Positions 1 through 55,473 of a DNA stretch of 60,065 nucleotides are shown one piece after another. A model generated the notes under the pieces. The model was not told the DNA's origin. It searched no databases and saw nothing but the letters and a program-made list of their open reading frames with translations. The first letter of the stretch is position 1. Every line of letters begins with the position of its first letter. The DNA is taken from IMG/VR virus record IMGVR_UViG_3300025120_000052, positions 1 through 60,065 of that record, one strand, 5' to 3'. The DNA comes from a virus. The position numbers and the translations under genes are program-made.

Positions 1-146
1 ATTTATTCGAAGCACCTAACCCAACAGAGGATGTTAGTGTTGAGGTTGAGGTCATGGAGCCTTCAAGTACGCGGACTCAACCGATTCAAGTTACTCCTGA
101 TAGCCCCACTCAGGGCGGCATCAATAAAGAGAACAGAGAACTACAA
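1..146. repeat. Terminal redundancy, left copy
   Basis: The first 146 bases recur as the last 146 bases of the window (59920-60065). The only difference I see is position 20 (C here, A at 59939). This is what is left when a circular or circularly permuted phage genome is written out linearly by an assembler. The repeat lies inside the giant gene and keeps its frame; the mismatch changes one codon (AAC here, AAA at the other end). Confidence 0.93.
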
Positions 147-6100: not shown

Positions 6101-9100
6101 TAACCCTACGTATCAAGCGCAGACCGAAGCGCGGCAGATGGAGTTAGCTGTTGCGTTGGACAGAGCCATTGGTATTGGTGCAAATCGAAATGTATCTAAA
6201 GAGATACGTGCTATTCGAGGGACGCTGACTCAGCGTAAGCGAGCCGTACGTGAAGTCCAATCAGTCAAGCGTCAACTACGTCAGCTTATTCGTAAATCTT
6301 TACCTAAGTCAGATGGCTATAGCCAAGCCGACATCAATAAGATTGTACGTTCTGTCGAGCGTGTTAACGAAGATAACTTCAGAGTAGAAGTAGAGAAGGT
6401 TCTTCAGGTAGTAGAAAAGCAACGGGCCAAACTAAGGAAGAAGACTCTAAAGAAGTTGATGGCCGACGTAACTCGTGGAGCAAAGAAAACTACTACCGAC
6501 ACCAAGAAGAGCCGAGCAGGTTCACTGAGCGCACAGGGACAATCGTTTGCTGCACAGTTTAAGCGTGCTCTTAAACTTGCAATGGCATCTGATGCCAAGC
6601 AAGAGGATGCAATGGAGAAGTTCATGCAACTAGCCGAGGAACTGCAGACGGATGAAGCTATTGTGGCCTTGGCTAAGAGCGCATCCGGAGAAGTCTTGAC
6701 CTCAAAAGAAGAAAGCATTGTTAACCTAGCCGTTGCTCTAGACCTTGTAAAGAACCTACCGAACATGACGTTGGAAGAGGTTCAGGCATTGGCTAATGAC
6801 TACGCTGTTGCAGCCTCAAGGTCAAGACAGGAGTTATCTGAAAGCCGTAAAAAACGTGCGCTTGAGAACGATGCTCTAAGAACTAAAGTAACAGACGCAA
6901 TGCGTCGTTCGAATCCTGATTTGTTTGATTCAGATGGAAACATTATCGGACAGAACAGAAGGAGAGCCATGCTTGATGACGTTCGAAGGTATTGGAACGA
7001 GGGTAAAGGCCAAGGCTTGTCCGCCCGTATGAGGGGCCAAGCTAAAGCCGCCAAGCTGTACGTTGAAACATACAAATGGCGAAGTGCGTTTCAAGCCGTC
7101 AAGTCTTTGATGGATGGGCTAAAGCATCTTGGTACATTCATGAACTCCATGAACGATACGCTGTACGATGAGGTCTTTAATCGCCTCAACAAGATGGACA
7201 ACAATGCGTTGAAAGGGAGGTTTAATCAAACTAAAATCCTTAATGACTTAGGCTTTGAAGAAGTTCAACAGACTTTGTTCGACAACAAAACGCTGACCAT
7301 TGAAGGGGTTAGAGAATCTAAAACAGGGAAGACATACACTGATTCGTTTAGTAAAGACCAACTGCTTAGAATCTATGCGCTATCTCTGAACCCCGTTCAA
7401 AGAAAGAAACTAGAAGAGCAGGGTTTTACCACTGATAAAATGAATGAGATTAAATCATTCTTAGGCAAAGACGCTACAGACTTTGCAGACAAGGTGGTGA
7501 ACTATCTAAGCAATGAGTACTACGAAAGCGTGAATGATGTATACCGAGAAGTAAATGACATCAACCTTAACTACGTAGAGAACTATTTCCCAACGATTAC
7601 AACTCAAGCTGAGGTTAATCCAAAGCAATTATTTGAAGGTGACTTCAACGGAATCTTTAACGCAGAGAGTGCGCCTGCCCTGAGAAATCGTGAGGACATG
7701 AAGAGTGACATTGCTTTGAAGGCAGCAAACTTTACATCTGCACTTACCTCTCACATGGAAACGATGGAGAGATACAAGGCATACGCTGATGGAGCAAAGA
7801 AGCTAAACGTAATCTTCAGCACTGATGCAGTAGACACTGCGCTTACTATGCTTGGAACTAAGTCTATGGTTAAGCAGTCCGTTAACAATGCAGTTAACCC
7901 TGATTCAGCCAAGACAGCGTTAAATCAATCAGGTAAACTGTTTAACATTTTGCAGACTCAGTTTACTTCTTTTGCTCTTGCATTCCGTGTAGTTCAAATA
8001 GGCAAGCAGGCCACATCATTCATCAATGCATTTGAGAACTACTCGTTCCGAAAGAGTGGCAAACAAAATACATTGGTTGACCTGCTTCCATTCCTGTATG
8101 ACTACGCATCGGTTATCGCACGCTCTAGGTCTTACCACAACCTAGCAATGGAGATGTCTCCTACGTATCGCTACCGTGTAGAGCAGGGCATTGCTGCTGA
8201 CCTATCAGGTCTTGAGGCGGGTTCACCTACAAGGACAGGGTTTGAACAGCGTCAGACAACGGACGCTAAGCTGTTTAGAAAGTTCAAGACAGCGGCTGCA
8301 TCACCTACTATCTTGGGTGACTTGATGGGTGTGGCCGGATACATGGCTAACTATCGTCGCAACATTCGTAATGGCATGAGCGAAGAGAAAGCTGCTGAAG
8401 CATTCAATGAGTTCAACCAAACACAGCAAAGTAGAAGAGCGACAGAGAAGTCCATTATTCAACAGAACAGCAACTACATCGTGAGGGCTTTCACTATGTT
8501 TGGTTCGACTCCAATTCTGTACATCAACAATGTGATGCAGGCGTTGAACAACATCATCAGTCCCAAGAAAAAAACTACCACTCAAGATGTGAGAAAGCTA
8601 GTGTTAAACCTTGGCGCGGCTAACGCGGCATTCGTTGCTATGTCTAACCTTGGAATTCTTTTGCGAGGAGATGACGAGGAAAAGAAAGAAGTGTTGCGTC
8701 AAATACGAAACGCAACGCTTGGTCTTAATCTTCTCTACCAAGTTCCATTCATGGGTACGGTTGCCAAGTCAGCAGAGAATTGGATTACAGGCAAGCGAAG
8801 ACCAACAGACATTGGAGTCAATCCTTTTGTGTCTCTGTTCCGTAAAATGAAGAAGGCCGCAGAGGACGACAAGGCTGTGAGCGGTGCTCTTAAGACAGTG
8901 GTTGAGATTGGCGTAGGCGCACAGCTTGACCCGTTCATAACACTGCTCGAACAAGCACGTGACATGGATGAGGTAGAGATGCGTGAGGTCTACGACATCA
9001 TTGGCTACTCTGAATCATACCGACCTGAGGTAGATAAGGAAGGATACAGAGAACTAACTCCACGGGCAAAGAAAGAACAGGAGAAGAAGGAACGAATCAA

Positions 9101-9200
9101 AGAAAAGCAAGAGAGTAATCCCGCCTTCATGAGGAGAAAAGAAAAGGAAAAGGAGGCGCGTAAAAAGCGCAGAGACCTAGAGAAGTTTGGAAGAGATTAG
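1..9200 (+). CDS. Giant polyvalent virion/cargo protein with zincin domain (main part; gene starts at 59688 across the join)
   Basis: The frame is open from base 3 and continues the frame that starts at 59688, so the whole protein is about 3,143 residues; the ATG at 54 is probably internal. Residues below are counted from 54. Visible parts: an N-terminal helical, charged region; a Gly/Ala-rich hydrophobic stretch (about 560-640); a Glu-rich linker with five VAEQP repeats (about 1035-1060); a zinc-protease motif HEFGH at about 1719; long Lys/Arg/Glu helical stretches; and a very basic C-terminus. Such mosaics are known in phages as polyvalent proteins, injected with the DNA or carried in the virion. 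It directly follows the cargo-type genes at 56879 and 57646, which fits a virion role. I see no RNA polymerase DxDxD motif. The individual activities are inference. Confidence 0.85.
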   Translation, partial: LFEAPNPTEDVSVEVEVMEPSSTRTQPIQVTPDSPTQGGINKENRELQEVNQAEMDKALVEQDLVRKQEKSAQLDTARAIELGKESTKAMLAQVNEELISLEEEEVVPKLRSLFKGRGFTFEETGIGDKVRVRTTDGMHSLDISLDNFLNSSDVAESAELQTFLRTHINPEIAAPNEDQISKALRAQEMRDSERWNDDGTASTVKFMSYEEDGVYKVAPTLFPRSTVQKSSPRQGDWLELEGDEAIREAERRGEVFNFTSEEEAEAFAKGSWKTTNVVDIEAQKFYNGYGRDYLSDRNAYDNYMNARDARIFLEEQIEISEDNRWGGVGQYQDLSPQEQEQYAEYFREDGSLRGDAAEIAEKLDDEAAELWKIVDGNDFRVAQEDLDVFLEKRHKASAQTAANMNYEARAIEQGLSNQALNEFGITLDQLTTYEPKSAAERLRLDEMIKVENSVRATKTAAALKYETALTYYDTKANKDIGVEFTDNLEGWATATADGYKNGKAAQELLYLAMGIYGEDEVEQRLAAERMTEWMNSVDGRQSRAMSRFDSAEDGFNREVRSAIARDPFEVMLTWAASSLSQIVPYGAKIIPSFVGVGAGIGAAYGAAGFNPVTVAAGAGTGATWGLRTGFAATNLVLEYTNGVLDAGREQGYNMNDPQDAARAFSDSEVWERGRERGLKRGIPIAVMDIFMGGLAGRIFKPVAVASKARKIGAFAAERAIVDPTAEATGELLAQLNVGDEISIKEIMAEFGGAVGNQSSNAAVNIYRSTRGGYNQRIAQNMMDVRLMAADGATDSQIQTWTNNMKKLGKITPEQAQKILENVGIRREANELLGVTAPSRIGIGKKKRARVMELLDVRAGLQSSTNTREIFSTEIKAINEELAAISRTNNLVESPVNLDNINRRDGLGRRTVPSYRIGNTLYSKNDFLSYIENLSPRRANKILKDSQVINDEETSLLVEEKLKPFVSQETTETTEDAIQERSTETVDVQEQTTDGEAVGERNPVGEFTEEVEVEDQVGETTSEETSEEVLDQDTQEAVDLEAADLEQSLGLEPVAEQPVAEQPVAEQPVAEQPVAEQDKDALVLRSNKAEREVKEVKNDFKKQRAKIKRRKASDAKDAALAALDTEESTAIEEIRKDSRIVKAAISVAMGKGLPKFAQKGGKFEATAEQLQRIASLAGVEVETITESESSNSRPEFRLKGESLELPQNETDAETVAVLEAMNEVGAQMEAEQNQELSDIDSRLKLNKNDAGKTLTVAQRKTLTQRADELRQRGRARDTESTATPIDMDELNSRLDNPLPTIEWKVVEGVPMIFNISDQLRTGDVTNPATGNTIDNLKGGLGFTGVEGHQDMAWASVTRDKAQGQIDNATKVYNDNKEFFTRWWKANPEYNGLVPMAIVKMGQSSILSNEAVVRVLGDNISALPIARRKKAVTAFKRAVKESIKIKQDAIKSGVKELTQKQYAAYIKDAQDVLAMVDVVKPTTIEQILTPEALSNLKGITSVNVITDLVMSGQPNEVGEKKRKPSYSFKTAKAVIKVLLGENPTEEQKKLLNAGVITDLITEPQLEGVPQRSVFMVQGVDVLNPEVLETNHPNYPVGPRGRTIGVLEQPQSVVDLFPAVANNVQLGIAQEQQGRPSRSERSRLTQVIPVQAGMPNTEFVGAIAGVENTVSVLDFLNRSFPSVTLSTDTETFSNVMASEGVREYLKGDEIVYGVTKDGDIYLNPDVHSSESALYNTAVHEFGHVWTDYLQTTKKGREIYSKGASLVTQTAEYQNQLKKFKSEGLTEEEAKKRAVNETMAILIGNKGETIINASLKQKFQAWLNATWTYIKETFKMSKDLSPEEIQNLTLDEFLGTALADIMSGKPLKLTESQSKKLKNPEAAFSRSDSMADIIARGRAEGFSEASIRQVLRSRGQKVADINAAMLMSMDLFSDAVVPFEFGNIEGGMDAGIQLFQQVQSELAAFAQPTVTRTSQRMSAAERRARLAELRENNPTLLELSDAALLRRFPRRGVAVETTTTEKTPGEIRQKALEILRANPTYQAQTEARQMELAVALDRAIGIGANRNVSKEIRAIRGTLTQRKRAVREVQSVKRQLRQLIRKSLPKSDGYSQADINKIVRSVERVNEDNFRVEVEKVLQVVEKQRAKLRKKTLKKLMADVTRGAKKTTTDTKKSRAGSLSAQGQSFAAQFKRALKLAMASDAKQEDAMEKFMQLAEELQTDEAIVALAKSASGEVLTSKEESIVNLAVALDLVKNLPNMTLEEVQALANDYAVAASRSRQELSESRKKRALENDALRTKVTDAMRRSNPDLFDSDGNIIGQNRRRAMLDDVRRYWNEGKGQGLSARMRGQAKAAKLYVETYKWRSAFQAVKSLMDGLKHLGTFMNSMNDTLYDEVFNRLNKMDNNALKGRFNQTKILNDLGFEEVQQTLFDNKTLTIEGVRESKTGKTYTDSFSKDQLLRIYALSLNPVQRKKLEEQGFTTDKMNEIKSFLGKDATDFADKVVNYLSNEYYESVNDVYREVNDINLNYVENYFPTITTQAEVNPKQLFEGDFNGIFNAESAPALRNREDMKSDIALKAANFTSALTSHMETMERYKAYADGAKKLNVIFSTDAVDTALTMLGTKSMVKQSVNNAVNPDSAKTALNQSGKLFNILQTQFTSFALAFRVVQIGKQATSFINAFENYSFRKSGKQNTLVDLLPFLYDYASVIARSRSYHNLAMEMSPTYRYRVEQGIAADLSGLEAGSPTRTGFEQRQTTDAKLFRKFKTAAASPTILGDLMGVAGYMANYRRNIRNGMSEEKAAEAFNEFNQTQQSRRATEKSIIQQNSNYIVRAFTMFGSTPILYINNVMQALNNIISPKKKTTTQDVRKLVLNLGAANAAFVAMSNLGILLRGDDEEKKEVLRQIRNATLGLNLLYQVPFMGTVAKSAENWITGKRRPTDIGVNPFVSLFRKMKKAAEDDKAVSGALKTVVEIGVGAQLDPFITLLEQARDMDEVEMREVYDIIGYSESYRPEVDKEGYRELTPRAKKEQEKKERIKEKQESNPAFMRRKEKEKEARKKRRDLEKFGRD
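3156..3230 (+). repeat. Five tandem 15-bp repeats encoding VAEQP
   Basis: Five near-identical in-frame copies of cctgtggctgaacaR encode Pro-Val-Ala-Glu-Gln units inside a Glu-rich linker of the giant protein. The unit is a multiple of three, so copy-number change would lengthen or shorten the linker without breaking the frame. Confidence 0.95.
3561..3576 (+). repeat. Dispersed palindrome, copy 1 (GAGAGTTCAAACTCTC)
   Basis: Perfect copy inside the giant gene, read there as Glu-Ser-Ser-Asn-Ser. The centre reads TTCAAA in the coding sense. Confidence 0.9.
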
Positions 9201-9400
9201 TGAGAGTTTAAACTCTCATCCAAAGAGTCCGCCACATCCCTGAGAATAATTAAAAGTTCTTCAGCGGTGTGGCGGGCTTGGCTTAACTCTCCGTCCATGA
9301 GTGATTCGTAAAGGTCGTCAGTGTTTTCGTGGATGTGATTCATCAAGGAGTTAACGTATGACACACGTTGTAACTCCAACACTGACAGGGGCTTTCTCAT
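9197..9400 (-). CDS. Hypothetical small acidic protein
   Basis: 67 residues, helical and acidic, not recognised. It is the last gene of the minus-strand early block and overlaps the stop of the convergent giant gene. Its final residues (ESLNSH) are encoded by a dispersed palindrome. It starts 4 bases after the end of the DnaA-like gene at 9404, so it is probably cotranscribed with it. Confidence 0.6.
   Translation of the reverse strand: MRKPLSVLELQRVSYVNSLMNHIHENTDDLYESLMDGELSQARHTAEELLIILRDVADSLDESLNSH
9202..9217. repeat. Dispersed palindrome, copy 2 (GAGAGTTTAAACTCTC)
   Basis: Perfect 16-base palindrome, 18 bases with the flanking T/A. It sits exactly at the convergent junction of the giant gene (stop at 9200) and the minus-strand gene ending at 9197, whose last codons it forms. 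It could act as a hairpin for both transcripts. Confidence 0.92.
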
Positions 9401-11093: not shown

Positions 11094-12543
11094 ATTCTTT
11101 TTTAAAATGAGTTGTGGTAAATGATTTCTTTTTGGTGACCGCCTTGTAAATCGAATCTTCAATTCCTCCCTTAGCAAACACCCAATACACGTCGCTCTTC
11201 AATCTTTCTTTTGTTGTCATCCTGTCTCTCGATTGCCAATAGCTTGTAGCTGAGAAGTCAATGTTGTAATAGACCAAAGCATTTGCTTCGCGCAGAGAGA
11301 TACCCTCTCTTCCTGCTACAATCTGAAGCGCGATACTTTTATCTGTGGTTTCGAACGCTTGAAGTTTTGTGGTCAGGTCAGTTCCATATGCCTCCTTGAG
11401 TGCAGCAAGTTCCTCTTTAAATTTGTAGAAGATTCCAATCTTTTTATTCTTGAACTTCTCTCGGATGAACATAGCCTTCGAGTAATCAAAGACCATTGAT
11501 GTTCCGTCTTCAAACTTTATTGTGCCTGAGTACATTTGATGTAGCTTCTGCATCAGCTTGACGGGTGTGTCTCCTAGTATCGTCTTCTCCTTGCCCGTAA
11601 TGACAAGGTCACGCTTGAGAGTATTGCACATGTCATATGTGCGTTGGTTCATATCCACATACAGGACATGTTCCTTAGTGTCCACCTTAAATCCCGCCTG
11701 CTCTTGAGAATAATTAATGGTGTATGGTTGCATCAAGTTGATTACTTCTTTCGATGCGGCATCATAGTTCTTATGGAACAGACCATTGATTCTTATCTCT
11801 TTGACGGCAACATGTTGTCGGGCAAATGCATAGAAGTTTTTGAACTCACGAAAGGGGTTGGTTGGAATTCCATACACCTGATGGTATATCATGCTGTACG
11901 ATTCAGGAGTCGGGGTTCCTGACAACAGGATAACCTTTGAGTTATTCCGCTTGATTAAATCCCTCACGTCCTTGGCCCTCTTGCTTGGCTTAGGAAAAGA
12001 ACCAAGGCTATGAGCCTCATCACATATGATTAAATCCCATTTCACATCAGGTATTTTATGCAGGCTTTCGTAGTTGATTGTAAAAAGAACATAGCTTGGA
12101 CACAGTAAGTCAGTGTCTTTAGTGATACTCGTTATAGCCTTCTTCTTTGTGATGAACAAAACATTTTCGAACCCCATGTCTTCTGCTATCCCCAAACTTG
12201 TAAGTGTCTTTCCCGTTCTTACCTCCATAGCGAGATACAAAAAGTCATGGGCCTGAAGTATCTCCTTGCCTTGCTCAATGATTTTCTTTTGATAGTCTCT
12301 AAACTCTAATTGATTTTGCATTCTTTCTTCGTAGTACGCTACGGTTTTATTGATGCGGTCTAACACATCGGGTTCTACTCTGTGCTTCGGCACATGTTTA
12401 GTTTCCACACTTCTTCCCCGCCCCACTTTTACCTCTTTGGTTTTGGTGAGAACGCCTTGAAGCATTTTGAAATGATGATAGTTCTGAGCATCGGAGTATG
12501 AACTTCGAGTCCATATTCCCTGAGAGTTTAAACTCTCACTCAT
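11062..12543 (-). CDS. SF2 DNA helicase (SNF2/DEAD-like)
   Basis: 493 residues. Motif I is MEVRTGKT (about 106-113), motif II DEAH (175-178), motif III SGT (208-210). The C-terminal RecA lobe ends with a motif V/VI region including AGREGISL and QSRDRMTT (the QxxxR arginine finger). This is the SNF2/type III-restriction-like organisation of phage SF2 helicases that move on double-stranded DNA. The start (MSESLNSQ) overlaps the primase stop, and its first codons are made by a dispersed palindrome at 12522-12537. Confidence 0.88.
   Translation of the reverse strand: MSESLNSQGIWTRSSYSDAQNYHHFKMLQGVLTKTKEVKVGRGRSVETKHVPKHRVEPDVLDRINKTVAYYEERMQNQLEFRDYQKKIIEQGKEILQAHDFLYLAMEVRTGKTLTSLGIAEDMGFENVLFITKKKAITSITKDTDLLCPSYVLFTINYESLHKIPDVKWDLIICDEAHSLGSFPKPSKRAKDVRDLIKRNNSKVILLSGTPTPESYSMIYHQVYGIPTNPFREFKNFYAFARQHVAVKEIRINGLFHKNYDAASKEVINLMQPYTINYSQEQAGFKVDTKEHVLYVDMNQRTYDMCNTLKRDLVITGKEKTILGDTPVKLMQKLHQMYSGTIKFEDGTSMVFDYSKAMFIREKFKNKKIGIFYKFKEELAALKEAYGTDLTTKLQAFETTDKSIALQIVAGREGISLREANALVYYNIDFSATSYWQSRDRMTTKERLKSDVYWVFAKGGIEDSIYKAVTKKKSFTTTHFKKEYGSTTGDKIR
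12522..12537. repeat. Dispersed palindrome, copy 3 (GAGAGTTTAAACTCTC)
   Basis: Perfect copy at the primase-helicase junction, just inside the helicase start codon (12541-12543). In the transcript its hairpin would occlude the first codons of the helicase. Confidence 0.92.
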
Positions 12544-15142: not shown

Positions 15143-15158
15143 TGAGAGTTTGAACTCC
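15143..15158 (-). repeat. Dispersed palindrome, copy 4 (one mismatch)
   Basis: In the minus sense it reads GGGAGTTCAAACTCTC, inside a longer stem GGTGGGAG...CTCTCACC. The deviation from consensus becomes a G-U pair in the transcript. It lies 3' of the SSB-like gene in a 218-base gap (14967-15184) before the primase-helicase gene, where an attenuator or processing hairpin is plausible. Nothing else distinct is visible in that gap. Confidence 0.85.
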
Positions 15159-15184
15159 CACCTCCCTTATTTCGTCGGGCAAAG

Positions 15185-17684: not shown

Positions 17685-17847
17685 GCTTCGTACGTTTTTG
17701 AGTAGAACCAAACAGGGACTCAATGAATTGAGAGAACACCTGCTCATGTGGTGAGAGTTTGAACTCTCGTTGTTGATACTCATCGTCGATGAACTTGTCA
17801 TCGTCAGTATCAATCTGATTTTCTAAAAGCTGTTTTGTCTTAGACAT
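17665..17847 (-). CDS. Small acidic protein, first gene after a promoter
   Basis: 60 residues, acidic N-terminal half (DTDDDKFIDDEYQQ). It starts 21 bases after a good promoter -7 box (17868-17875) and overlaps the next gene's start, which supports translation. A dispersed palindrome (17753-17768) lies inside it and is read as REFKLS. Function unknown. Confidence 0.6.
   Translation of the reverse strand: MSKTKQLLENQIDTDDDKFIDDEYQQREFKLSPHEQVFSQFIESLFGSTQKRTKHEAGNL
17753..17768 (-). repeat. Dispersed palindrome, copy 5
   Basis: Perfect copy; minus sense GAGAGTTCAAACTCTC with the common flanks C and A. It lies within the small acidic gene, 5 bases before a possible start codon (17747) of the DnaA-like gene. 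Confidence 0.92.
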
Positions 17848-19177: not shown

Positions 19178-19193
19178 GAGAGTTTGAACTCTC
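19178..19193 (-). repeat. Dispersed palindrome, copy 6
   Basis: Perfect copy (minus sense GAGAGTTCAAACTCTC, flanks C...ACAAT) in the 32-base gap between the amidotransferase fusion gene and the gene starting at 19163, 14 bases from that start codon. Confidence 0.93.
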
Positions 19194-19195
19194 GA

Positions 19196-20266
19196 TTAAA
19201 AATTAAACCTAAGAACTTCCTCTTCAGTGAACTCACCTCCGCATCCCGTACAACTGTACGTTCCGCTTGGGTATTCTTCAGCAACGAGGTCGTTGTAGCA
19301 CTCAACACAAAAGGGTGAATTGTTTTCCTTCAGTTCGGGCCATTTCTCTTCTTCGAGGTCATCCCAAAGCAAGGACTGATTGCACTCAGGTACAGGCGCA
19401 ACGATTACTCGTTTCTTTGGGACAATGCCAAAGGACTTATGGAACTTTGCGCTAGGCAGGTGCTCGGTGTCGTTGAAGTAAATCCAACAGTTGATAAGCC
19501 TGCCGTCCTTCATCTTGATAGGCACTTGAGTTCTGCGATACCATTGAGGATGCCCTTCGAGTAGGTCAAGGTCTTTGAACGTAGCATCGGTAACCTTGAA
19601 CACATCCACCTCTACGTTGTGACCAATACCCTTCTTAGACAAGAGGTAAGGCAGGCCGTTGATGATTAGTGGATACTTGTCTTGGGTAACTCCCGCGCCT
19701 ACAAACTTCTCGCGTCTGAGATAGTTCATGTAGTTGCCATGACCACGCTTCAACGTGCCGTACACAGCAACGACGTTGTCCATGAGAACGTTGGCTTTGG
19801 AATACCAAATGCCATCACGCTTGATGTACAGGTCACGATTGTAAATCTGAAAGGACTTGTCTCTCGTGTTGATGCTGACGAACCGTGAGTCATGCTGTTC
19901 CAACTCGGCCTTCCATTGACTGCGAGGCATAGAGCCTAGCTTCTCAGCCAACACCTTGCTGTCGCACTTCTCCTTTGTACCGATGCCCTTGATTGTTCCG
20001 TTCTGCATGAGTAACTCATGGCTCTGCTCACCACATATGAATGGGTGAGTGTTAGCCCTGCCTACCGCACCTACGGTGGCATACCTGAAGTGAGCGATGA
20101 ACGGACGTTCGGTTAGTAGTTGCTCGTAATCCTCTGACTCATGGTATGTTGTCTCGAATGTGTCGAGGAATGTAATACCCAACCCGTGAGGGTTGATGCG
20201 AGCGGAGTTTTCCAACACCTCACGAGATATGGTGTTGGCCTTTTGTTTAATGATAATCACACACAT
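19196..20266 (-). CDS. Class II glutamine amidotransferase-GGCT (AIG2-like)-zinc ribbon fusion
   Basis: 356 residues in three parts. Residues 1-150: class II glutamine amidotransferase (Ntn hydrolase) starting MCVIIIK, with Cys2 as the expected N-terminal nucleophile after Met removal, and the family motif HFRYATVGAVGRANTHPF (59-76). Residues 165-290: gamma-glutamylcyclotransferase fold with YGTLKRGHGNY (169-179) and the catalytic Glu in DLLEGHP (Glu237). Residues 320-345: zinc ribbon, Cys320/323 and Cys339/342. The first part would release ammonia from glutamine; the GGCT part would handle gamma-glutamyl amides. These families are known to travel with amidoligases, and one lies at 22741. The substrate is unknown. 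The leader holds a promoter and a palindrome 19 bases before the ATG. Confidence 0.87.
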   Translation of the reverse strand: MCVIIIKQKANTISREVLENSARINPHGLGITFLDTFETTYHESEDYEQLLTERPFIAHFRYATVGAVGRANTHPFICGEQSHELLMQNGTIKGIGTKEKCDSKVLAEKLGSMPRSQWKAELEQHDSRFVSINTRDKSFQIYNRDLYIKRDGIWYSKANVLMDNVVAVYGTLKRGHGNYMNYLRREKFVGAGVTQDKYPLIINGLPYLLSKKGIGHNVEVDVFKVTDATFKDLDLLEGHPQWYRRTQVPIKMKDGRLINCWIYFNDTEHLPSAKFHKSFGIVPKKRVIVAPVPECNQSLLWDDLEEEKWPELKENNSPFCVECYNDLVAEEYPSGTYSCTGCGGEFTEEEVLRFNF

Positions 20267-20285: not shown

Positions 20286-20301
20286 GAGAGTTTGAACTCT
20301 C
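20286..20301 (-). repeat. Dispersed palindrome, copy 7
   Basis: Perfect copy (minus sense GAGAGTTCAAACTCTC). It is in the 5' leader of the amidotransferase fusion, about 10 bases after the expected transcription start and 19 bases before the ATG at 20266, followed by ACAATCAAATCCAATCATC. Confidence 0.93.
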
Positions 20302-22080: not shown

Positions 22081-22263
22081 TTACGAGTTGTGAGAGTTTG
22101 AACTCTCGTTTTCACTTGCCCTCCGCTTGAAGTAGGCAAGCGATTCACTACAGCGTTCTTCGCTGTAGCGTGCGCTATCTCCGAGGATAAGAGCGCGGCC
22201 AAGTTGTTCAGTCCAAAAGGTAATCTTGCCTGCGTAGTTGTCGTTGATTCTGTTACGTCGCAT
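22081..22263 (-). CDS. Small basic hypothetical protein
   Basis: 60 residues from MRRNRINDNYAGK. The start is set by the promoter at 22310-22341: the in-frame ATG at 22353 lies upstream of it and cannot be used from that transcript. The last residues (NESSNSHNS) are encoded by a dispersed palindrome. Not recognised. Confidence 0.58.
   Translation of the reverse strand: MRRNRINDNYAGKITFWTEQLGRALILGDSARYSEERCSESLAYFKRRASENESSNSHNS
22092..22107 (-). repeat. Dispersed palindrome, copy 8
   Basis: Perfect copy (minus sense GAGAGTTCAAACTCTC) forming the end of the gene at 22081-22263 and lying 15 bases before the start of the tiny membrane gene at 22076. Confidence 0.92.
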
Positions 22264-22531: not shown

Positions 22532-22636
22532 TTAGGATACGAGATAGGTTAAGACGAGCAATGTGGTAGTGGCGATACGGAAAACCCACTTGACTTGTGA
22601 TTCGATATTGTTCATGACGTTTCGATGGTAGGCCAT
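22532..22636 (-). CDS. Tiny membrane protein behind a hammerhead leader
   Basis: 34 residues from the ATG at 22636 (MAYHRNVMNNIESQVK, then the hydrophobic helix VFRIATTTLLVLTYLV). Its start codon lies 17 bases after the 3' end of a hammerhead ribozyme, which argues against the longer frame starting at 22747. Single-span membrane peptide of unknown role. Confidence 0.5.
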   Translation of the reverse strand: MAYHRNVMNNIESQVKWVFRIATTTLLVLTYLVS

Positions 22637-22653
22637 CACCCGTTTGTTGGTTT

Positions 22654-22707
22654 GCTGTTTCGACTCTTTTGAGTCATCATCAGGAGCGATACACATCGCC
22701 CGACAGC
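22654..22707 (-). ncRNA. Hammerhead ribozyme, type III (copy downstream of the amidoligase)
   Basis: Read on the minus strand from 22707: stem III 5' strand GCUGU; cleavage-site C (after 22702); stem I GGGCGAU, loop GUGU, AUCGCUC; core CUGAUGA; one extra U; stem II GACUC, loop AAAA, GAGUC; core GAA with A15.1; stem III 3' strand ACAGC ending at 22654. All invariant core residues (CUGANGA, GAAA, GUC at the cleavage site) are present. The extra U between A9 and stem II is unusual, though natural hammerheads with an insertion there are known. Predicted cut: between 22702 and 22701. A dispersed palindrome lies 5 bases 5' of it, a start codon 17 bases 3'. Confidence 0.87.
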
Positions 22708-22712
22708 GGGAC

Positions 22713-22728
22713 GAGAGTTTGAACTCTC
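22713..22728 (-). repeat. Dispersed palindrome, copy 9 (in front of hammerhead)
   Basis: Perfect copy with an extra C-G pair (minus sense CGAGAGTTCAAACTCTCG), 12 bases after the amidoligase stop and 5 bases before the hammerhead. Confidence 0.93.
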
Positions 22729-22740
22729 GCCCCATCCCAC

Positions 22741-23757
22741 TCACCAACGAGGAAGGGAGACTCGCCCGTAGTGCTGTGGGTCTCGGCTCGCGGCCTCAGT
22801 CACCTCAGCCATCCTCCGTCGAGCACATCGTGTGTGCGCGTCAGGGAAGAGGTTGCCGTGGCGGTCAATCCAAGGCATCACCTCAGCGTTGACCTTGCCC
22901 GTTGCGATGAACTTGTCGAAGGACTTGCTCAACTCAATCACCATCGATGCCTTGTTCGTATCAGGCTCGTACATGGCGTTGATGATTGGAGTGAAGCGTC
23001 TGCGAACTTGAGCAGGAGTCTGACCTTTGACTGCTCCGTCAACCAAAACGTACATCAGGTCGTAGCGTAATCGCATCTGACGAACTGAAGTGATGCGAGA
23101 TGGGATGCGGAACTCAACTGCGTTGTCCATCACCTTCGCTACGCTGTACTTGCCTCCCCAACCTGAGCGTCCTGCTCGGCCAAACATCTCACCACGTTGC
23201 TCGTAAGGAAGCATCGTGATGTTGTTGCCTACGTAGTGATTGCTGATGCGGCCTCGGAACAAGGCTAGGATGATTCCGCAGTGGTTGCGCATCGCGGCCA
23301 TCAATTCCTGTCCGCTCATGCCTTCAACCGAGATTGTCATGTGGCCTCCACAGCTTGAGTTGCTTGGGCTGTAGCTGTCATCAATCACGCGCTCGGCTTG
23401 GTGCATCATGTCGTACACCTTGGTGCGCCATGCACACGCAGGTAGCAAAGGCAAGATGTTGGTAACGGCCTCGTAGCCACATGACGAGTCTCGCTCGAAT
23501 CCGCAGAACAACGGATACTCACGAACTGCGCCACGAGCGATTCGAGTCTTCTCAACTTCGAACCCGATGCCGTACTTAGCACCGACTGATGTTGCTGTTT
23601 GCATTTCGAGCGCATTTCGGTCAAGCGGATTGAGACCGATTGCGTCTGTGAGAGATGCTCCCTTGCGGAAATCACGGAAAGCAGGCTTGCTGTGGTATCC
23701 GCTCATTTCGCCCCTTCGAGGAACGTTGTCGTTGGTGTACTGAACTCCTTGTATCAT
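22741..23757 (-). CDS. Amidoligase-like enzyme (ATP-dependent COOH-NH2 ligase, glutamine synthetase-like fold)
   Basis: 338 residues. Motifs of the putative amidoligase family in order: GIGFEVE (63-69), FERDSSCGYE (87-96), SSCGGHMTI (134-142; the Cys-Gly-Gly-His core), and AVEFRIPSR (213-221). Known members are predicted to join a carboxylate to an amine with ATP through the glutamine synthetase-like metal site formed by the Glu/His residues. The C-terminal third is helical. With the amidotransferase-GGCT fusion at 19196 it forms a predicted amide or gamma-glutamyl modification set; the target is unknown. The gene is G+C-richer than the structural genes. Its mRNA has a hammerhead ribozyme just before the start and another just after the stop. 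Confidence 0.78.
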   Translation of the reverse strand: MIQGVQYTNDNVPRRGEMSGYHSKPAFRDFRKGASLTDAIGLNPLDRNALEMQTATSVGAKYGIGFEVEKTRIARGAVREYPLFCGFERDSSCGYEAVTNILPLLPACAWRTKVYDMMHQAERVIDDSYSPSNSSCGGHMTISVEGMSGQELMAAMRNHCGIILALFRGRISNHYVGNNITMLPYEQRGEMFGRAGRSGWGGKYSVAKVMDNAVEFRIPSRITSVRQMRLRYDLMYVLVDGAVKGQTPAQVRRRFTPIINAMYEPDTNKASMVIELSKSFDKFIATGKVNAEVMPWIDRHGNLFPDAHTRCARRRMAEVTEAASRDPQHYGRVSLPRW

Positions 23758-23780
23758 GACCTTGTGTTTTAGTCAGGTTT

Positions 23781-23831
23781 GCTGTTTCGTCCTTTTGGAC
23801 TCGTCAGGCAGAGCACTCACTCTGCGACAGC
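23781..23831 (-). ncRNA. Hammerhead ribozyme, type III (amidoligase 5' leader)
   Basis: Read on the minus strand from 23831: stem III GCUGU; cleavage-site C; stem I GCAGAG, loop UGAGUG, CUCUGC; core CUGACGA; stem II GUCC, loop AAAA, GGAC; core GAA plus A15.1; stem III ACAGC ending at 23781. Every invariant core position fits and all three stems are perfect, in 51 bases. Stem III is the open end, so this is a type III hammerhead. Predicted cut: between 23826 and 23825, leaving a 5'-hydroxyl mRNA that starts with GCAGAG about 70 bases before the amidoligase ATG. A dispersed palindrome lies 6 bases 5'. Confidence 0.93.
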
Positions 23832-23837
23832 GGAAGT

Positions 23838-23853
23838 GAGAGTTTGAACTCTC
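23838..23853 (-). repeat. Dispersed palindrome, copy 10 (in front of hammerhead)
   Basis: Perfect copy in a longer stem (minus sense GTGAGAGTTCAAACTCTCAC), between the stop of the gene at 23868 and the hammerhead in the amidoligase leader. Confidence 0.94.
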
Positions 23854-23867
23854 ACTCCCTTTGTGCC

Positions 23868-24542
23868 TCAGGAGACAAATGCCGCAACTCTCAACTCAAT
23901 GCCTGCGAACGCAGCAAACGCAATGATTGATTCGGCTAGTTCCTCACGGCTGTTGGTCGTATCAACAACTCCGTTCACATCGCAGTTGGCTACGATGTTT
24001 CCGCTCACGGGATGCTTAAAGCGGAACTGACCAAGGTTCGCTGATGCCGTTGGTGTAGCTTCAACCTCAGCCTCTTCGATGGCCTCTTCTATCTCCGCTC
24101 CTGTCTCCTCAACTTCGTCAAGCAAAGCGCGCGACCATTTGTCGAAATGCTGAATGGAACGTGGTGCTTTCTCACCTGCTCCTGCCAACCTAGTCTGCTC
24201 TCGCTTGTACTTGGTGAGCAGTGTTGGATGCTCGTCGATGCGAGTCTGAACTCGGACTAGCAGGTCAGGAGTTGTTCGTGCTCCGTAGCGCAATGCCTTC
24301 TGAACGAACTCGGTCTTGTTCCATGCACTTCCCAAGGCTTCCTCCATCTCAGCCTTGGCGGAGTCTGATGCGAACCAAGCGTATGCGGCTTGAAGATGCT
24401 TGGCCTGTTTGAGGCTTGCTTCGAATGCGGCCTTGCGGCTGTCGGTCTCAGCATCCTGTGCGCTGTGGAGTTGAGAGATGCTTCCTGATTCGAAGCGGAT
24501 TGAAGCGATAAACGCTGTCTCGATTTGCAGTAAATTTTGCAT
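23868..24542 (-). CDS. Hypothetical protein, first gene of the minus-strand block
   Basis: 224 residues, helical and acidic in the middle (EEVEETGAEIEEAIEEAEVE), with a beta-rich end (FRFKHPVSGNIVANCDVNGVVD). Not recognised. It is the most upstream gene of the leftward block and is separated from the amidoligase by the palindrome-hammerhead unit, so the two are probably on one transcript that is cut between them. Codon use is G+C-rich like the amidoligase. Confidence 0.68.
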   Translation of the reverse strand: MQNLLQIETAFIASIRFESGSISQLHSAQDAETDSRKAAFEASLKQAKHLQAAYAWFASDSAKAEMEEALGSAWNKTEFVQKALRYGARTTPDLLVRVQTRIDEHPTLLTKYKREQTRLAGAGEKAPRSIQHFDKWSRALLDEVEETGAEIEEAIEEAEVEATPTASANLGQFRFKHPVSGNIVANCDVNGVVDTTNSREELAESIIAFAAFAGIELRVAAFVS

Positions 24543-24778: not shown

Positions 24779-24794
24779 GAGAGTTCAAACTCTC
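24779..24794 (+). repeat. Dispersed palindrome, copy 11 (GAGAGTTCAAACTCTC)
   Basis: Perfect copy in the noncoding divide, placed between two other hairpins. The plus strand reads TTCAAA in the centre; by the rule seen elsewhere this predicts a rightward transcript here. Confidence 0.92.
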
Positions 24795-26541: not shown

Positions 26542-28185
26542 ATGTTTAAAGACAACACAGGCTATATGCCTAAAGACCTACAGTTTGACGATGCAGGTCG
26601 TTCCAAATTAATCGACGGCATTACTCAGATGGCTAATGCTGTCAAGAGTACTCTCGGCCCAAGCGGACAAACGGTTCTAATTGAATCGCCTCACCACCTT
26701 CATGGCATCACGGTAACCAAGGACGGTGTTACTGTAGCTAAAGCGGTTGACCTTATTGACCCTGTCGAGAACCTTGCGGTTCGTATGATGAAAGAGGCAT
26801 CAGACCGTACAGCTTCTGAGGCAGGTGATGGAACGACTACTGCGATTGTACTTACCGAGGCTTTGGTTCGTGCGGGTTATGAAGCACTTGAGTACAAGCA
26901 TCGGGGGATTAATAAGACCAACATGCTTCGCAATGTCGTTTCGTTAACGAATGAGGTCGTTGACTACTTGCAAAAGATTAGCATGCCGTTGACTGAGAAG
27001 CGTATGCTTGATGTAGCTACCATCTCTAGTAATAACGACCCTGTCATTGGTGACATCATTTCCAAGGTCTATAAAGAAGTAGGTAAGGACGGTGTTGTAA
27101 CTGTAGAGAACAGTCAAACTAGTGACACTACGTTTGAGACTACGAAGGGTCTTAAGATTGAGAGAGGGTATACGGCTCCCTTATTTATCAATGACCAAAC
27201 TCGTGATGAGTGTATCCTTGATGACTGCCATGTATTGGTTAGTGATGCAGGCATTGACAACGTCTTGCAGATTGAGAAGATTCTGAATTACATCATCCCT
27301 TCTAATAAGAAGCTATTGATTATCGCTCCTGTATCACAACAGGTTACGAATACCTTGGCTGCGAACGTTATGAAGAACGGTCTGAAGCTATGTGTTATTG
27401 CTCCACCTAACTTTGGATATAAGCAACATGAGTTGATGCAAGACATTGCGGCTGCTGTGAATGCTACCTACTACAGTGAGAAGACGGGTGATGACCTTAG
27501 TCTTATGGAACCTACCGACCTAGGTAAGGTATCCAAGGCTGTTATCTCTCGTGGGTCTACCATCCTCCTGACGAACGAAGAAGAGTCGAGTGATAAGATT
27601 AAGGAGCGTGTAACTCAGTTGCGTGCGGCAGTAAAGAAAGAGAAGGTTAAGTTGGCTAAAGACTTTTTGCGTTCTCGTATCGCAACTCTTACAGGTGGCA
27701 TTGGTGTTATCTATGTAGGAGGACAGACAGACCTAGAACAGAAAGAACTGTATGACCGTGTAGACGATGCGGTATGCGCTGTACGGTCAGCCCTTGAGGA
27801 AGGTATCCTACCGGGAGGGGGAATGGCACTGCACAATGCATGTTTGAATGTAATTGAGAAGCACCTAGAGACTCCTGATGTCGATATGCTTGCCGCTTCT
27901 AGTATGCTGACAGTTGCTCTTAATGCTCCTCTCAATCAGATACTTGTCAATGCAGGTAAAAATTCTGATGAGGTATATCACTATGATTGGCAAAAGGGAG
28001 ATACTCCTTCCGCCACAGAAGGTTACGATGTAAAGAAGAACAAGTATGGCGACCTTATCGAGATGGGGGTTATCGACCCTATGAAGGTTACCAAGGTTGC
28101 ATTGCAGAATGCAGTTTCAGTAGCGTCTACTATTCTATCAACTAATGCCATTATTACTATGGCTCGTGAAATCGGGAAAGAATGA
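26542..28185 (+). CDS. groEL: Phage-encoded chaperonin GroEL
   Basis: 547 residues, the normal length. Nucleotide-site motifs: TLGPSG (37-42), TKDGVTVAK (59-67), AGDGTTTA (94-101), the DRVDDA stretch carrying the ATPase Asp, and the GILPGGGMAL loop. The apical domain contains hydrophobic patches (YTAPLFIND). The C-terminus lacks the GGM tail of host GroEL. It should form the folding chamber for phage proteins, perhaps the capsid or the giant cargo protein. It is followed, with stop/start overlaps, by a zinc-ribbon miniprotein and GroES. Some phages carry GroEL alone; both subunits in one phage operon is rarer. Confidence 0.95.
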   Translation: MFKDNTGYMPKDLQFDDAGRSKLIDGITQMANAVKSTLGPSGQTVLIESPHHLHGITVTKDGVTVAKAVDLIDPVENLAVRMMKEASDRTASEAGDGTTTAIVLTEALVRAGYEALEYKHRGINKTNMLRNVVSLTNEVVDYLQKISMPLTEKRMLDVATISSNNDPVIGDIISKVYKEVGKDGVVTVENSQTSDTTFETTKGLKIERGYTAPLFINDQTRDECILDDCHVLVSDAGIDNVLQIEKILNYIIPSNKKLLIIAPVSQQVTNTLAANVMKNGLKLCVIAPPNFGYKQHELMQDIAAAVNATYYSEKTGDDLSLMEPTDLGKVSKAVISRGSTILLTNEEESSDKIKERVTQLRAAVKKEKVKLAKDFLRSRIATLTGGIGVIYVGGQTDLEQKELYDRVDDAVCAVRSALEEGILPGGGMALHNACLNVIEKHLETPDVDMLAASSMLTVALNAPLNQILVNAGKNSDEVYHYDWQKGDTPSATEGYDVKKNKYGDLIEMGVIDPMKVTKVALQNAVSVASTILSTNAIITMAREIGKE

Positions 28186-31976: not shown

Positions 31977-31992
31977 GAGAGTTTAAACTCTC
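31977..31992. repeat. Dispersed palindrome, copy 12 (GAGAGTTTAAACTCTC)
   Basis: Perfect copy with an extra C-G pair, in the gap 31893-32035, upstream of the -7 box at 32024. That gap also has a 24-codon frame (31912-31986) ending in the palindrome, which I do not count as a gene. Confidence 0.92.
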
Positions 31993-38828: not shown

Positions 38829-41049
38829 TCTCTACACTACAGTAGAAAAACTAGTTCCCTCAAACGTTCTATCTAATAAAAATAGAGCAAAGGCATGGGG
38901 ATATGGGTACCATGCTAAATATGATTTAGTAGTCATATCGCGCACAGGTCAAGTGGGTGAGATTATTAATATCTCAGGATTAAACATTGGCCTTCCTCCT
39001 TCTGATGTGAGAGTTCAAACTCCCACTGATAAATCAAAGCAGTATTGGGTTAGAGAAGAACTCCCCAAACCTTTGTCTAGGGTTCACTCTATTTTTGCAT
39101 GGAACGACATGCCCTCTTCGTTTAAAAATGAATGGGTCGATTACATCGAAGAGGAATTCAACCGAAGGGAGGAGGGTTTTTGGTTCATGAACAAAGGTGT
39201 GCCTACGTATCTTACGGGAGCACACTACATGTACCTACAGTGGTCTACTATTGACGTTGGCTATCCCGACTTCAGAGAGGCTAATCGAATCTTCTTTATT
39301 TTTTGGGAAGCATGCAAGGCGGATGATAGGTGTTTTGGGATGACCTATCTTAAGATTAGGCGTTCAGGCTTTTCGTTCATGGGGTCATCGGAATGTGTAA
39401 ATACAGGAACACTAGCAAAAGATTCACGGGTAGGAATTTTATCTAAGACAGGTTCTGATGCTAAGAAGATGTTTACCGATAAGGTTGTTCCTATTGCAAA
39501 CCGACTACCCTTTTTCTTTAAGCCCATACAAGATGGTATGGACAAGCCAAAAACGGAATTAGCCTTCCGTGTTCCTGCTTCTAAGATTACAAAAAAGAAC
39601 ATGCATACTTCTGTGGCGGAAGAAATGCATGGTCTTGACACTACGATTGATTGGAAGAACACTGACGACAACTCTTACGATGGTGAGAAACTATTGTTGC
39701 TTGTTCATGACGAAAGCGGTAAGTGGATTAAGCCCAACAACATTCTCAACAATTGGCGAGTAACTAAAACCTGCCTCAGGTTGGGAAGCCGCATTATTGG
39801 TAAGTGCCTTATGGGTTCTACATCTAATGCCTTAAGCAAAGGAGGTGGCAACTTTAAAAAGCTGTACGAAGATTCAGATATTTCTGAGCGCAATGGTAAT
39901 GGTCAAACACGGAGTGGCATGTACTCTTTGTTTATTCCAATGGAGTACAACATGGAGGGGTTTATTGACCGCTTCGGACACCCTGTTGTAAACAAGCCTT
40001 CTAAGGCTGTATTAGGTATCGACAATCGTCCCATTAATTCAGGTGCTCTTACGTATTGGGAGGCCGAAGTAGAGTCGCTTAAAAACGACCCTGACGCTCT
40101 CAATGAATTTTACCGTCAGTTTCCTAGAACTGAGTCTCACGCCTTTAGAGACGAAAGCAAGTCTACCTTGTTTAACCTTACTAAGATTTATCAGCAGTTA
40201 GATTATGCAGAGTCTTTAATTAAGGAGCAGTATGTTACAAGAGGTTCCTTTGGTTGGCAGGATGGAAAGAAAGATACCAAGGTAGTTTTCTATCCCGATA
40301 GCCGAGGAAGGTTTAGAGTTTCGTGGACTCCCCCTGCAGGATTGCAAAACTCTATTATAGAAAGAGGCGGTAACAAACGCCCCGGAAATGAACACATTGG
40401 TGCATTTGGGTGCGACTCTTATGACATATCAGGAGTCGTAGGCGGTGGAGGCTCTAACGGTGCGCTTCACGGCATGACCAAGTATCACATGGATGAGGCT
40501 CCTACTAATGAGTTTTTTCTTGAGTATGTGGCTAGACCTCAAACAGCAGAGATATTTTTTGAAGAGGTATTAATGGCCTGCGTTTTTTACGGTATGCCTA
40601 TTCTCATTGAGAACAACAAGCCTAGGTTGCTTTACCATTTTAAAAACCGAGGGTATAGAGGGTTTTGTTTAAACCGTCCTGACAAACCCTACAATAAACT
40701 GTCTAAGACTGAGCGAGAGTTGGGAGGTATTCCAAACTCATCTGAGGATGTTAAACAAGCGCACGCATCTGCTATTGAATCTTACATTGAGAAATACGTA
40801 GGGCTTGATTTAGAGGGTCAATTTAGAGACTCCGACGAAATGGGGACTATGCCTTTCGTTAGAACGCTAGAAGATTGGGCGAAGTTTGACATCAGCAATA
40901 GAACTGCTTACGATGCTACCATTAGTTCGGGCCTTGCTATAATGGCAAACCAAAAGCACTTGTACACCCCTGAACAAAAGCAGAAAAAAATAAGCCTTAC
41001 CTTCGCTCAGTATAGAAATAGTGGAACGATAAGCGAAATAATTAGATGA
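38803..41049 (+). CDS. terL: Terminase large subunit
   Basis: 748 residues. ATPase: variant Walker A around RRSGFSFMGSSE (about 187-198), with a Walker B LLLLVHDESG near residue 297 and a coupling motif MGSTSN near 345. Nuclease: GCDSYDISG near 537 (first acidic residue) and later conserved Asp/Glu around SSEDVKQAHASAI. It cuts and pumps DNA into the head. The form is that of crAss-like phages. A one-mismatch dispersed palindrome lies in its early codons (39009). Confidence 0.9.
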   Translation: MQNKEQKNNLYTTVEKLVPSNVLSNKNRAKAWGYGYHAKYDLVVISRTGQVGEIINISGLNIGLPPSDVRVQTPTDKSKQYWVREELPKPLSRVHSIFAWNDMPSSFKNEWVDYIEEEFNRREEGFWFMNKGVPTYLTGAHYMYLQWSTIDVGYPDFREANRIFFIFWEACKADDRCFGMTYLKIRRSGFSFMGSSECVNTGTLAKDSRVGILSKTGSDAKKMFTDKVVPIANRLPFFFKPIQDGMDKPKTELAFRVPASKITKKNMHTSVAEEMHGLDTTIDWKNTDDNSYDGEKLLLLVHDESGKWIKPNNILNNWRVTKTCLRLGSRIIGKCLMGSTSNALSKGGGNFKKLYEDSDISERNGNGQTRSGMYSLFIPMEYNMEGFIDRFGHPVVNKPSKAVLGIDNRPINSGALTYWEAEVESLKNDPDALNEFYRQFPRTESHAFRDESKSTLFNLTKIYQQLDYAESLIKEQYVTRGSFGWQDGKKDTKVVFYPDSRGRFRVSWTPPAGLQNSIIERGGNKRPGNEHIGAFGCDSYDISGVVGGGGSNGALHGMTKYHMDEAPTNEFFLEYVARPQTAEIFFEEVLMACVFYGMPILIENNKPRLLYHFKNRGYRGFCLNRPDKPYNKLSKTERELGGIPNSSEDVKQAHASAIESYIEKYVGLDLEGQFRDSDEMGTMPFVRTLEDWAKFDISNRTAYDATISSGLAIMANQKHLYTPEQKQKKISLTFAQYRNSGTISEIIR
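39009..39024 (+). repeat. Dispersed palindrome, copy 13 (one mismatch, inside terL)
   Basis: GAGAGTTCAAACTCCC within a longer stem GTGAGAG...CTCCCAC, read as VRVQTP. The centre is TTCAAA in the coding sense. The mismatch gives an A-C pair in RNA, so this copy is the weakest. Confidence 0.75.
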
Positions 41050-46134: not shown

Positions 46135-46170
46135 GGGGTGGGAGTTTAAACTCTCACCCCTTTACTTTTT
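46135..46170 (+). terminator. Terminator formed on a dispersed palindrome (copy 14)
   Basis: GGGGTGGGAGTTTAAACTCTCACCCC (46135-46160) followed by TTTACTTTTT. The core (46140-46155) is a one-mismatch copy of the dispersed palindrome, and the mismatch forms a G-U pair in the transcript. G+C-rich stem plus T-run makes an intrinsic terminator after the capsid gene. Confidence 0.8.
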
Positions 46171-55457: not shown

Positions 55458-55473
55458 GAGAGTTTAAACTCTC
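55458..55473. repeat. Dispersed palindrome, copy 15 (GAGAGTTTAAACTCTC)
   Basis: Perfect copy between the Cys-rich gene (stop 55456) and the next start (55489), 15 bases before that ATG, with the same flanks (C...A) as the leader copies on the minus strand. Confidence 0.93.

Follow-up and report, generated by a model that had tools for sequence, protein, structure and literature searches.

Two self-cleaving RNA motifs of the hammerhead class bracket a single gene on the minus strand of the viral DNA considered here (the window, that is, the whole stretch of 60,065 bases that was analysed), and the question raised by this locus is which RNAs such a pair would make, and in the service of which gene. 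The last ~126 bases of the window repeat near its start (direct repeat with positions 21-146), which is consistent with a complete genome that is either circular or terminally redundant. The terminase encoded by the window shares 73.6% identity with its counterpart in the uncultured podovirus MW202828.1 and ~45% with the terminases of elemo phages of Flavobacterium. A GroEL-type chaperonin is also encoded (26542-28185).

The hammerhead units and the gene between them

Along the minus strand, a gene for 224 amino acids is followed by hairpin 1, hammerhead HHR1, 23 nucleotides, a gene with a predicted amidoligase fold and hairpin 2, downstream of which lie HHR2, a leader and a tiny membrane gene. 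HHR1 (23781-23831) has its predicted cut after C23826, between GCUGUC and GCAG, and HHR2 (22654-22707), which has one extra U before stem II, after C22702. Both contain the core CUGANGA ... GAAA with an NUH cut triplet (GUC), and in both folds stems I and II are closed and stem III is open, as defines type III; stem III is alike in the two (GCUG/CAGC). Against a covariance model (R1) built from 44 phage hammerheads, the window excluded, HHR1 scores 75.2 bits (E 2.9e-19) and HHR2 50.3 bits (E 4.8e-12), at a chance expectation of zero, and the same scan of the window finds nothing else of note (third-best E 0.7). The strict pattern GCTGTC-N-CTGANGA-N-GAAACAGC matches the window twice and 100 dinucleotide shuffles not at all. 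The sequence-only reading had placed two ribozyme units in this order around one gene; both lie on the minus strand in that order, and these comparisons confirm them as real hammerhead-containing units at the level of sequence and predicted fold.

In the type III alignment of 44 relatives, which were chosen for good pairing, 98.6% of the cells at 16 base pairs are paired. U13 of loop I and A39 of loop II, which may take part in a tertiary contact between the loops, are invariant in these relatives. Covariation is strong, with counts inflated in the R1 and R2 alignments because their sequences were picked for good pairing; slid controls remain far lower. The Rfam family RF00008 gives HHR1 42.7 bits, under its gathering score of 48.5, the Rfam search of the window does not list HHR2, and the related type III units at 13 loci all stay below the gathering threshold as well. 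That score is a database cut-off and not a structural feature. The variant seen in HHR2, in which an additional U separates CUGANGA from stem II, recurs in other phages, namely L009, L032, L034, L036, L054, L065, L103 and L121.

Each ribozyme is abutted on its 5′ side by a hairpin, with 0 nt to stem III. Hairpin 1 (GGGAGUGAGAGUUCAAACUCUCACUUCC, 23832-23859, minus strand) has 12 bp in both the minimum free energy and the centroid fold and holds a palindrome at 23838-23853; hairpin 2 (GGGGCGAGAGUUCAAACUCUCGUCCC, 22708-22733, minus strand) has 11 bp and holds a palindrome at 22713-22728. Their fold z-scores are -5.5 and -5.0, respectively. The 5-6 bases that had been read as free between palindrome and ribozyme are thus paired within these hairpins. 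Neither hairpin has the U run of an intrinsic terminator behind it, as the ribozyme follows at once.

On the 3′ side, the distance of 17-23 bases to a start codon proposed from the letters stands for the amidoligase-fold gene, whose A/C-rich leader measures 23 nt (23758-23780, minus strand), and probably not for the second unit. There the first ATG lies 17 nt after HHR2 and opens a frame that stops after MAYH in the relatives L036 and L044, so that the tiny membrane gene (22532-22615, minus strand; 27 amino acids, MNNIESQVKWVFRIATTTLLVLTYLVS) more plausibly starts at the ATG 38 nt after HHR2, at 22615. The leader of this unit contains a conserved 17-nt element (GGTGATGGCCTACCATC, 22624-22640, minus strand), which recurs after HHR2 orthologues, and also ahead of other phage genes, and matches no Rfam family. 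As GGTGATGRCYTACCATC, the element was examined in 41 contexts, in 21 of which a start codon follows it at 9-29 nt (random expectation 22%); it is also present in L526, L528, L537, L538, L545, L561 and others.

The bracketed gene (22741-23757, minus strand) encodes 338 amino acids. A Foldseek search with its AF2 model (pLDDT 70) returned GmaS as best match (E 6.5e-5), followed by PafA, GS and YbdK, at TM-scores of only 0.2-0.4, which gives moderate support to a predicted GS/PafA-type (amidoligase) fold. The initial naming of the gene as an amidoligase thus keeps its predicted GS-type ligase fold and loses a Pfam match, as none to Amidoligase_2 (PF12224) was obtained at E <= 10 among seven records. 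A neighbour of the kind expected for an amidoligase is present: the ORF at 19196-20266 contains a GGACT (gamma-glutamyl cyclotransferase) domain (E 6e-22) and a weak match to glutamine amidotransferase (GATase).

Recurrence in other phages

Wherever the gene lies next to hammerheads in the sample, one precedes it and another follows its stop codon (9/9 loci). The loci were found through their hammerheads or through the protein of the gene, and they form a small sample of related phages that are not independent of one another. The type of the ribozyme changes between them: the bracket is III/III in the window, L036, L044 and L252, I/III in L123, L124 and L125, type I with a U4C core change followed by type III in L122, and III/I in L126, which amounts to a type I unit upstream in four relatives and downstream in one. 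Every unit is backed by a covariance score, the weakest being the type I unit of L126 (26 bits, E 1.7e-4). A lack of conservation, suggested by the type III finder on its own, was rejected once reading of the flanks and a type I finder had revealed the missing units. Relatives with one isolated part of the module, the outcome that the sequence-only reading had named as a refutation, did not turn up: both sides are occupied in all nine sampled loci with hammerheads beside the gene. In MW202828 the gene has palindromes near both ends and no hammerhead. The U4C unit of L122 lies at 4867-4916, where close relatives have a normal core, and in L122 and L123 a 23-codon ORF separates the upstream unit from the gene.

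The arrangement extends well beyond this gene. IMG/VR and bacterial genomes were scanned with patterns that started from a few stem sequences, and the stems of the matches were then checked; this yielded 179 non-redundant type III units among the matches listed, with simple ORF calls; the same finder gave no hits in 575 kb of shuffled sequence. The order that recurs in phage contigs is stop codon, hairpin, type III hammerhead, ~23 nt and ATG. Among the matches listed, a hairpin ends at most 10 nt upstream of the ribozyme in 133/179 (74%; gap 0 in 76). The corresponding rates are 11% for shuffled flanks, 13% for random positions and 18% on the downstream side of the ribozyme. An ATG follows within 60 nt in 162/179 listed (91%; median 23, interquartile range 19-28; random 34%), and a stop codon precedes within 150 nt in 172/179 listed (96%; median 35; random 59%), all three features being combined in 67% of the listed units. 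Those with a stem III other than GCTG behave alike (hairpin in 92/127 and ATG in 117/127 of the matches listed). A Shine-Dalgarno-like motif is present in some leaders and missing in others. The genes downstream of the first set of hammerheads, 93 in number, fall into 74 families, of which the amidoligase-fold family is the largest, with five members.

The presence of the hairpin depends on an upstream gene. Among the listed type III units, a strict hairpin is found in 123/146 for which an ORF ends at most 80 nt upstream and in 10/33 for which none does (Fisher p 2.7e-9), and many of the 23/146 listed units with an upstream gene and no strict hairpin have longer-looped ones. At the gene junctions of 21 phage records, a hairpin is present at 21/21 hammerhead junctions versus 148/336 others (p 7.5e-8). 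Type I units, 155 of them non-redundant among the matches listed, differ in this respect: a separate upstream hairpin accompanies only 23/155 (15%, the background level) versus 133/179 type III units (p 3e-29, matches listed). Their ATG is similarly placed (no more than 60 nt past the cut in 83% of the 155 listed; median 24.5 nt), and the stop codon, where found, typically lies 1.5 nt and often 0-7 nt ahead of the ribozyme. An upstream ORF within 80 nt is present for only 49% of the listed type I units (random 20%).

One array (positions 8077-14667 of L469/G028, a 22-kb contig) has 14 hammerheads, 12 of type I and two of type III, on one strand within ~6.6 kb, and several begin 1-5 nt past a stop codon. 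A hammerhead-like unit of isolated phages lies 15 nt ahead of the gp59 start in NC_055853.1 (L270, 17867-17919, minus strand; 41 bits against R1). The same DNA is found at >=99% identity in 68 records of elemo phages, whose host is Flavobacterium sp. BAL314. A blastn search of one complete unit against named phages gave no match.

The 16-base palindrome had been taken for a dedicated part of the ribozyme module. This is not supported: GAGAGTTCAAACTCTC or a close form occupies 15 sites in the window (~0.7 expected), most of them devoid of a hammerhead, and a purely ribozyme-linked role was rejected for this reason. On the minus strand, copies lacking a hammerhead lie at 22092-22107, 20286-20301, 17753-17768, 19178-19193 (right behind the stop codon at 19196) and 15144-15159 (a variant), and one with a TTTAAA centre lies at 12522-12537, right behind the stop codon at 12540. 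On the plus strand, they are found at 24779-24794 (no hammerhead), at 9202-9217 and 55458-55473 (TTTAAA forms right behind the stop codons at 9200 and 55456), at 31977-31992 (TTTAAA form) and 46140-46155 (a variant), both intergenic, and also within genes, namely the long ORF 54-9200 (3561-3576) and the terminase gene (39009-39024, a variant).

Related phages have 8-15 copies each of a palindrome version of their own. The sequence differs among related genomes (the window, G001-G007 and G011-G027), each with many copies of one version. The arms read GGGGG in G001-G004 and GAGGG in G006 and G007; GTGTCTTCAAAGACAC is the version in most of a second phage group. In MW202828, GTGTCGTTAACGACAC occurs in 14 exact copies, several of them a few bases past a stop codon. 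In sampled phage records, the palindrome of the respective genome stands ahead of 39/45 type III units; the other six also have a hairpin there, one of which is the palindrome clipped by the limit of 45 nt on the search. Stem III of six type I units (L126, L165, L340, two in L377, and L485) itself contains a palindrome of this kind.

Palindromes with an asymmetric loop are oriented with transcription in 91/109 cases with agreeing neighbours. With the strand taken from this loop orientation, the outer pairs of hammerhead-linked palindromes are G-U in 28 and A-C in 8 cases, as compared with 60 and 100 for palindromes without a hammerhead, an excess that we count as evidence for selection that would act at the RNA level. 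Because the outward G-U pairing is limited to the hammerhead-linked copies, the palindrome appears to be an independent layer, which grows into a longer stem at the RNA level only beside ribozymes.

A cut-and-cap model and its alternatives

What the genomes show directly are the ribozyme folds, parts in a stereotyped order at stereotyped distances, a conserved bracket, a swap of types and a hairpin whose presence depends on a gene upstream. On this basis, each unit is probably an intercistronic cut-and-cap element. Several phage genes would be transcribed as one RNA, and a hammerhead between two cistrons would cleave itself, splitting the message while RNA polymerase runs on. The upstream mRNA would then end in a 3′ hairpin, six nucleotides and a 2′,3′-cyclic phosphate, and such an end should withstand 3′ exonucleases; the downstream mRNA would start with a 5′-OH and its own ribosome-binding leader. 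The two units around the amidoligase-fold gene would free a 1.1-kb monocistronic mRNA; from hammerhead chemistry, cutting at both predicted sites should give 1124 nt (22702-23825, minus strand) with 5′-OH and 2′,3′-cyclic phosphate ends. We infer that the ribozymes would cleave in infected cells, that the hairpin would stabilise the RNA which it ends, and that there may be a regulatory benefit.

The contrast between the types is central to this model. A type III hammerhead has no structure 5′ of its cut, which would explain the separate hairpin directly before it, and a type I hammerhead needs no extra hairpin since its own stem III ends at the cut. Together with the dependence on an upstream gene, this points to an upstream RNA ending in a hairpin as the common product. 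Because the bracket is kept while the type of ribozyme changes, cutting at that place would be the selected function. The proposal that the module is a modular RNA-processing device isolating one gene is thus supported by the bracket itself and by the hairpin-hammerhead-start order of many phages.

Two other readings assign the parts differently, and we regard both as unlikely. The hairpin could be a folding insulator, which keeps upstream coding sequence and ribosomes off the 5′ strand of stem III, stacks on that stem and helps cleavage. It most often abuts stem III without a gap (76 of the 133 listed) and folds independently beside it, and the need for insulation would be greatest near a translated upstream gene; as an upstream gene also means upstream ribosomes, the dependence on such a gene would fit as well. 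However, type I units often lie 0-7 nt past a stop codon and yet have no extra hairpin, and the same palindrome stands behind stop codons where there is no hammerhead at all. Alternatively, the cut could serve the downstream gene by trimming variable upstream sequence and fixing a short leader, like synthetic ribozyme insulators. The tight ATG distance of both types (medians 23 and 24.5 nt among the matches listed) fits this, as does a hammerhead 13 nt before the helicase start of an archaeal virus, where a transcript 5′ end maps at the cut (PMC3088659). Against it, types I and III replace each other at the same junction although the 5′ ends they would leave are very different, and the hairpin is on the upstream side (74% versus 18% downstream).

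Far less probable is the circularisation of the freed RNA by a ligase, which the sequence-only reading had proposed for an RtcB-type enzyme of the host, or by the hammerheads acting in reverse. The two ribozymes of the window share stem III GCUG/CAGC, and the 3′ end could thereby re-pair with HHR1. Yet a search of 13 of these phage records for RtcB found none, several brackets combine type I with type III, most contigs with several hammerheads have stem III sequences that differ from one hammerhead to another, and Perreault et al. (2011; PMC3088659) looked for circular or spliced products of prophage hammerheads and reported none, so that the proposal is not supported. A selfish or passive spread of hammerheads between genes, with no function for the phage, is similarly improbable. 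Hammerheads are common elsewhere in repeats and selfish elements, as the same paper reports (PMC3088659), and HHR2 with its leader stands ahead of different genes in different phages; passive spread nonetheless accounts poorly for a bracket retained in every sampled locus through a change of type, for strong covariation and for stereotyped spacing.

A broader version of the cut-and-cap model, which we put forward tentatively and consider somewhat doubtful, is a system of ribozyme punctuation: hammerheads of either type would cut many cistron borders, each after a hairpin, and the genome-specific palindrome would be a 3′-end tag read by a phage or host factor. If true, such a system would replace protein ribonucleases or terminators in the mRNA production of some phage groups. 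The bracket with its changing ribozyme type predicts exact RNA ends. As isolated elemo phages carry a related hammerhead, the model could be tested without new isolation, and the modules could serve as natural parts for separating mRNAs.

Relation to known systems

Intercistronic cuts leaving hairpin-ended mRNAs, as proposed for the units of the window, are known from the RNase III sites of phage T7; there a host protein cuts, whereas the RNA of the window would cut itself. In RiboJ-type insulators, a leader hammerhead frees the downstream gene from upstream sequence; RiboJ is engineered and has its hairpin 3′ of the ribozyme, in contrast to the 5′ position of the hairpin in the window.

According to one review, it is an open question what hammerheads do in bacteria and phages (PMC6155905), and the reason for their association with phages was still called unknown in 2023 (PMC10085705). 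Theta ribozymes of gut phages are likewise self-cleaving and linked to phage RNA processing, but they form an HDV-like class tied to tRNAs, unlike the hammerheads considered here (PMC10879173). HHphage of the haloviruses HF1 and HF2 lies 13 nt before a start codon, with a transcript 5′ end at most three nucleotides from the cut; it stands alone, ahead of an operon's first gene, and has a variant core, and no hairpin is reported for it in the accessible text (PMC3088659).

The closest precedent is the work of Perreault et al. (2011; PMC3088659), which describes clusters in which several hammerheads flank single prophage genes or short blocks, reports that they cleave in vitro and that one cluster also does so in E. 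coli, and proposes that long phage RNAs are processed into gene-length mRNAs. Hammerheads flanking prophage genes are thus already known, and the ribozyme class is not new. The hairpin abutting the ribozyme on the side of the cut, the link between this hairpin and a gene upstream, the exchange of types I and III at the same junction and the genome-wide palindromes are not described for the prophage clusters in the accessible text (PMC3088659). A literature search, with most subscription journals outside its reach, found no paper on hammerheads with an amidoligase or on such intergenic hairpins. Nearly all of these units fall below the Rfam thresholds, so public annotation understates their number. 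Within the literature searched, the composite module, the hairpin contrasts, the swap of types at conserved positions, the arrays and the poor Rfam coverage appear to be new.
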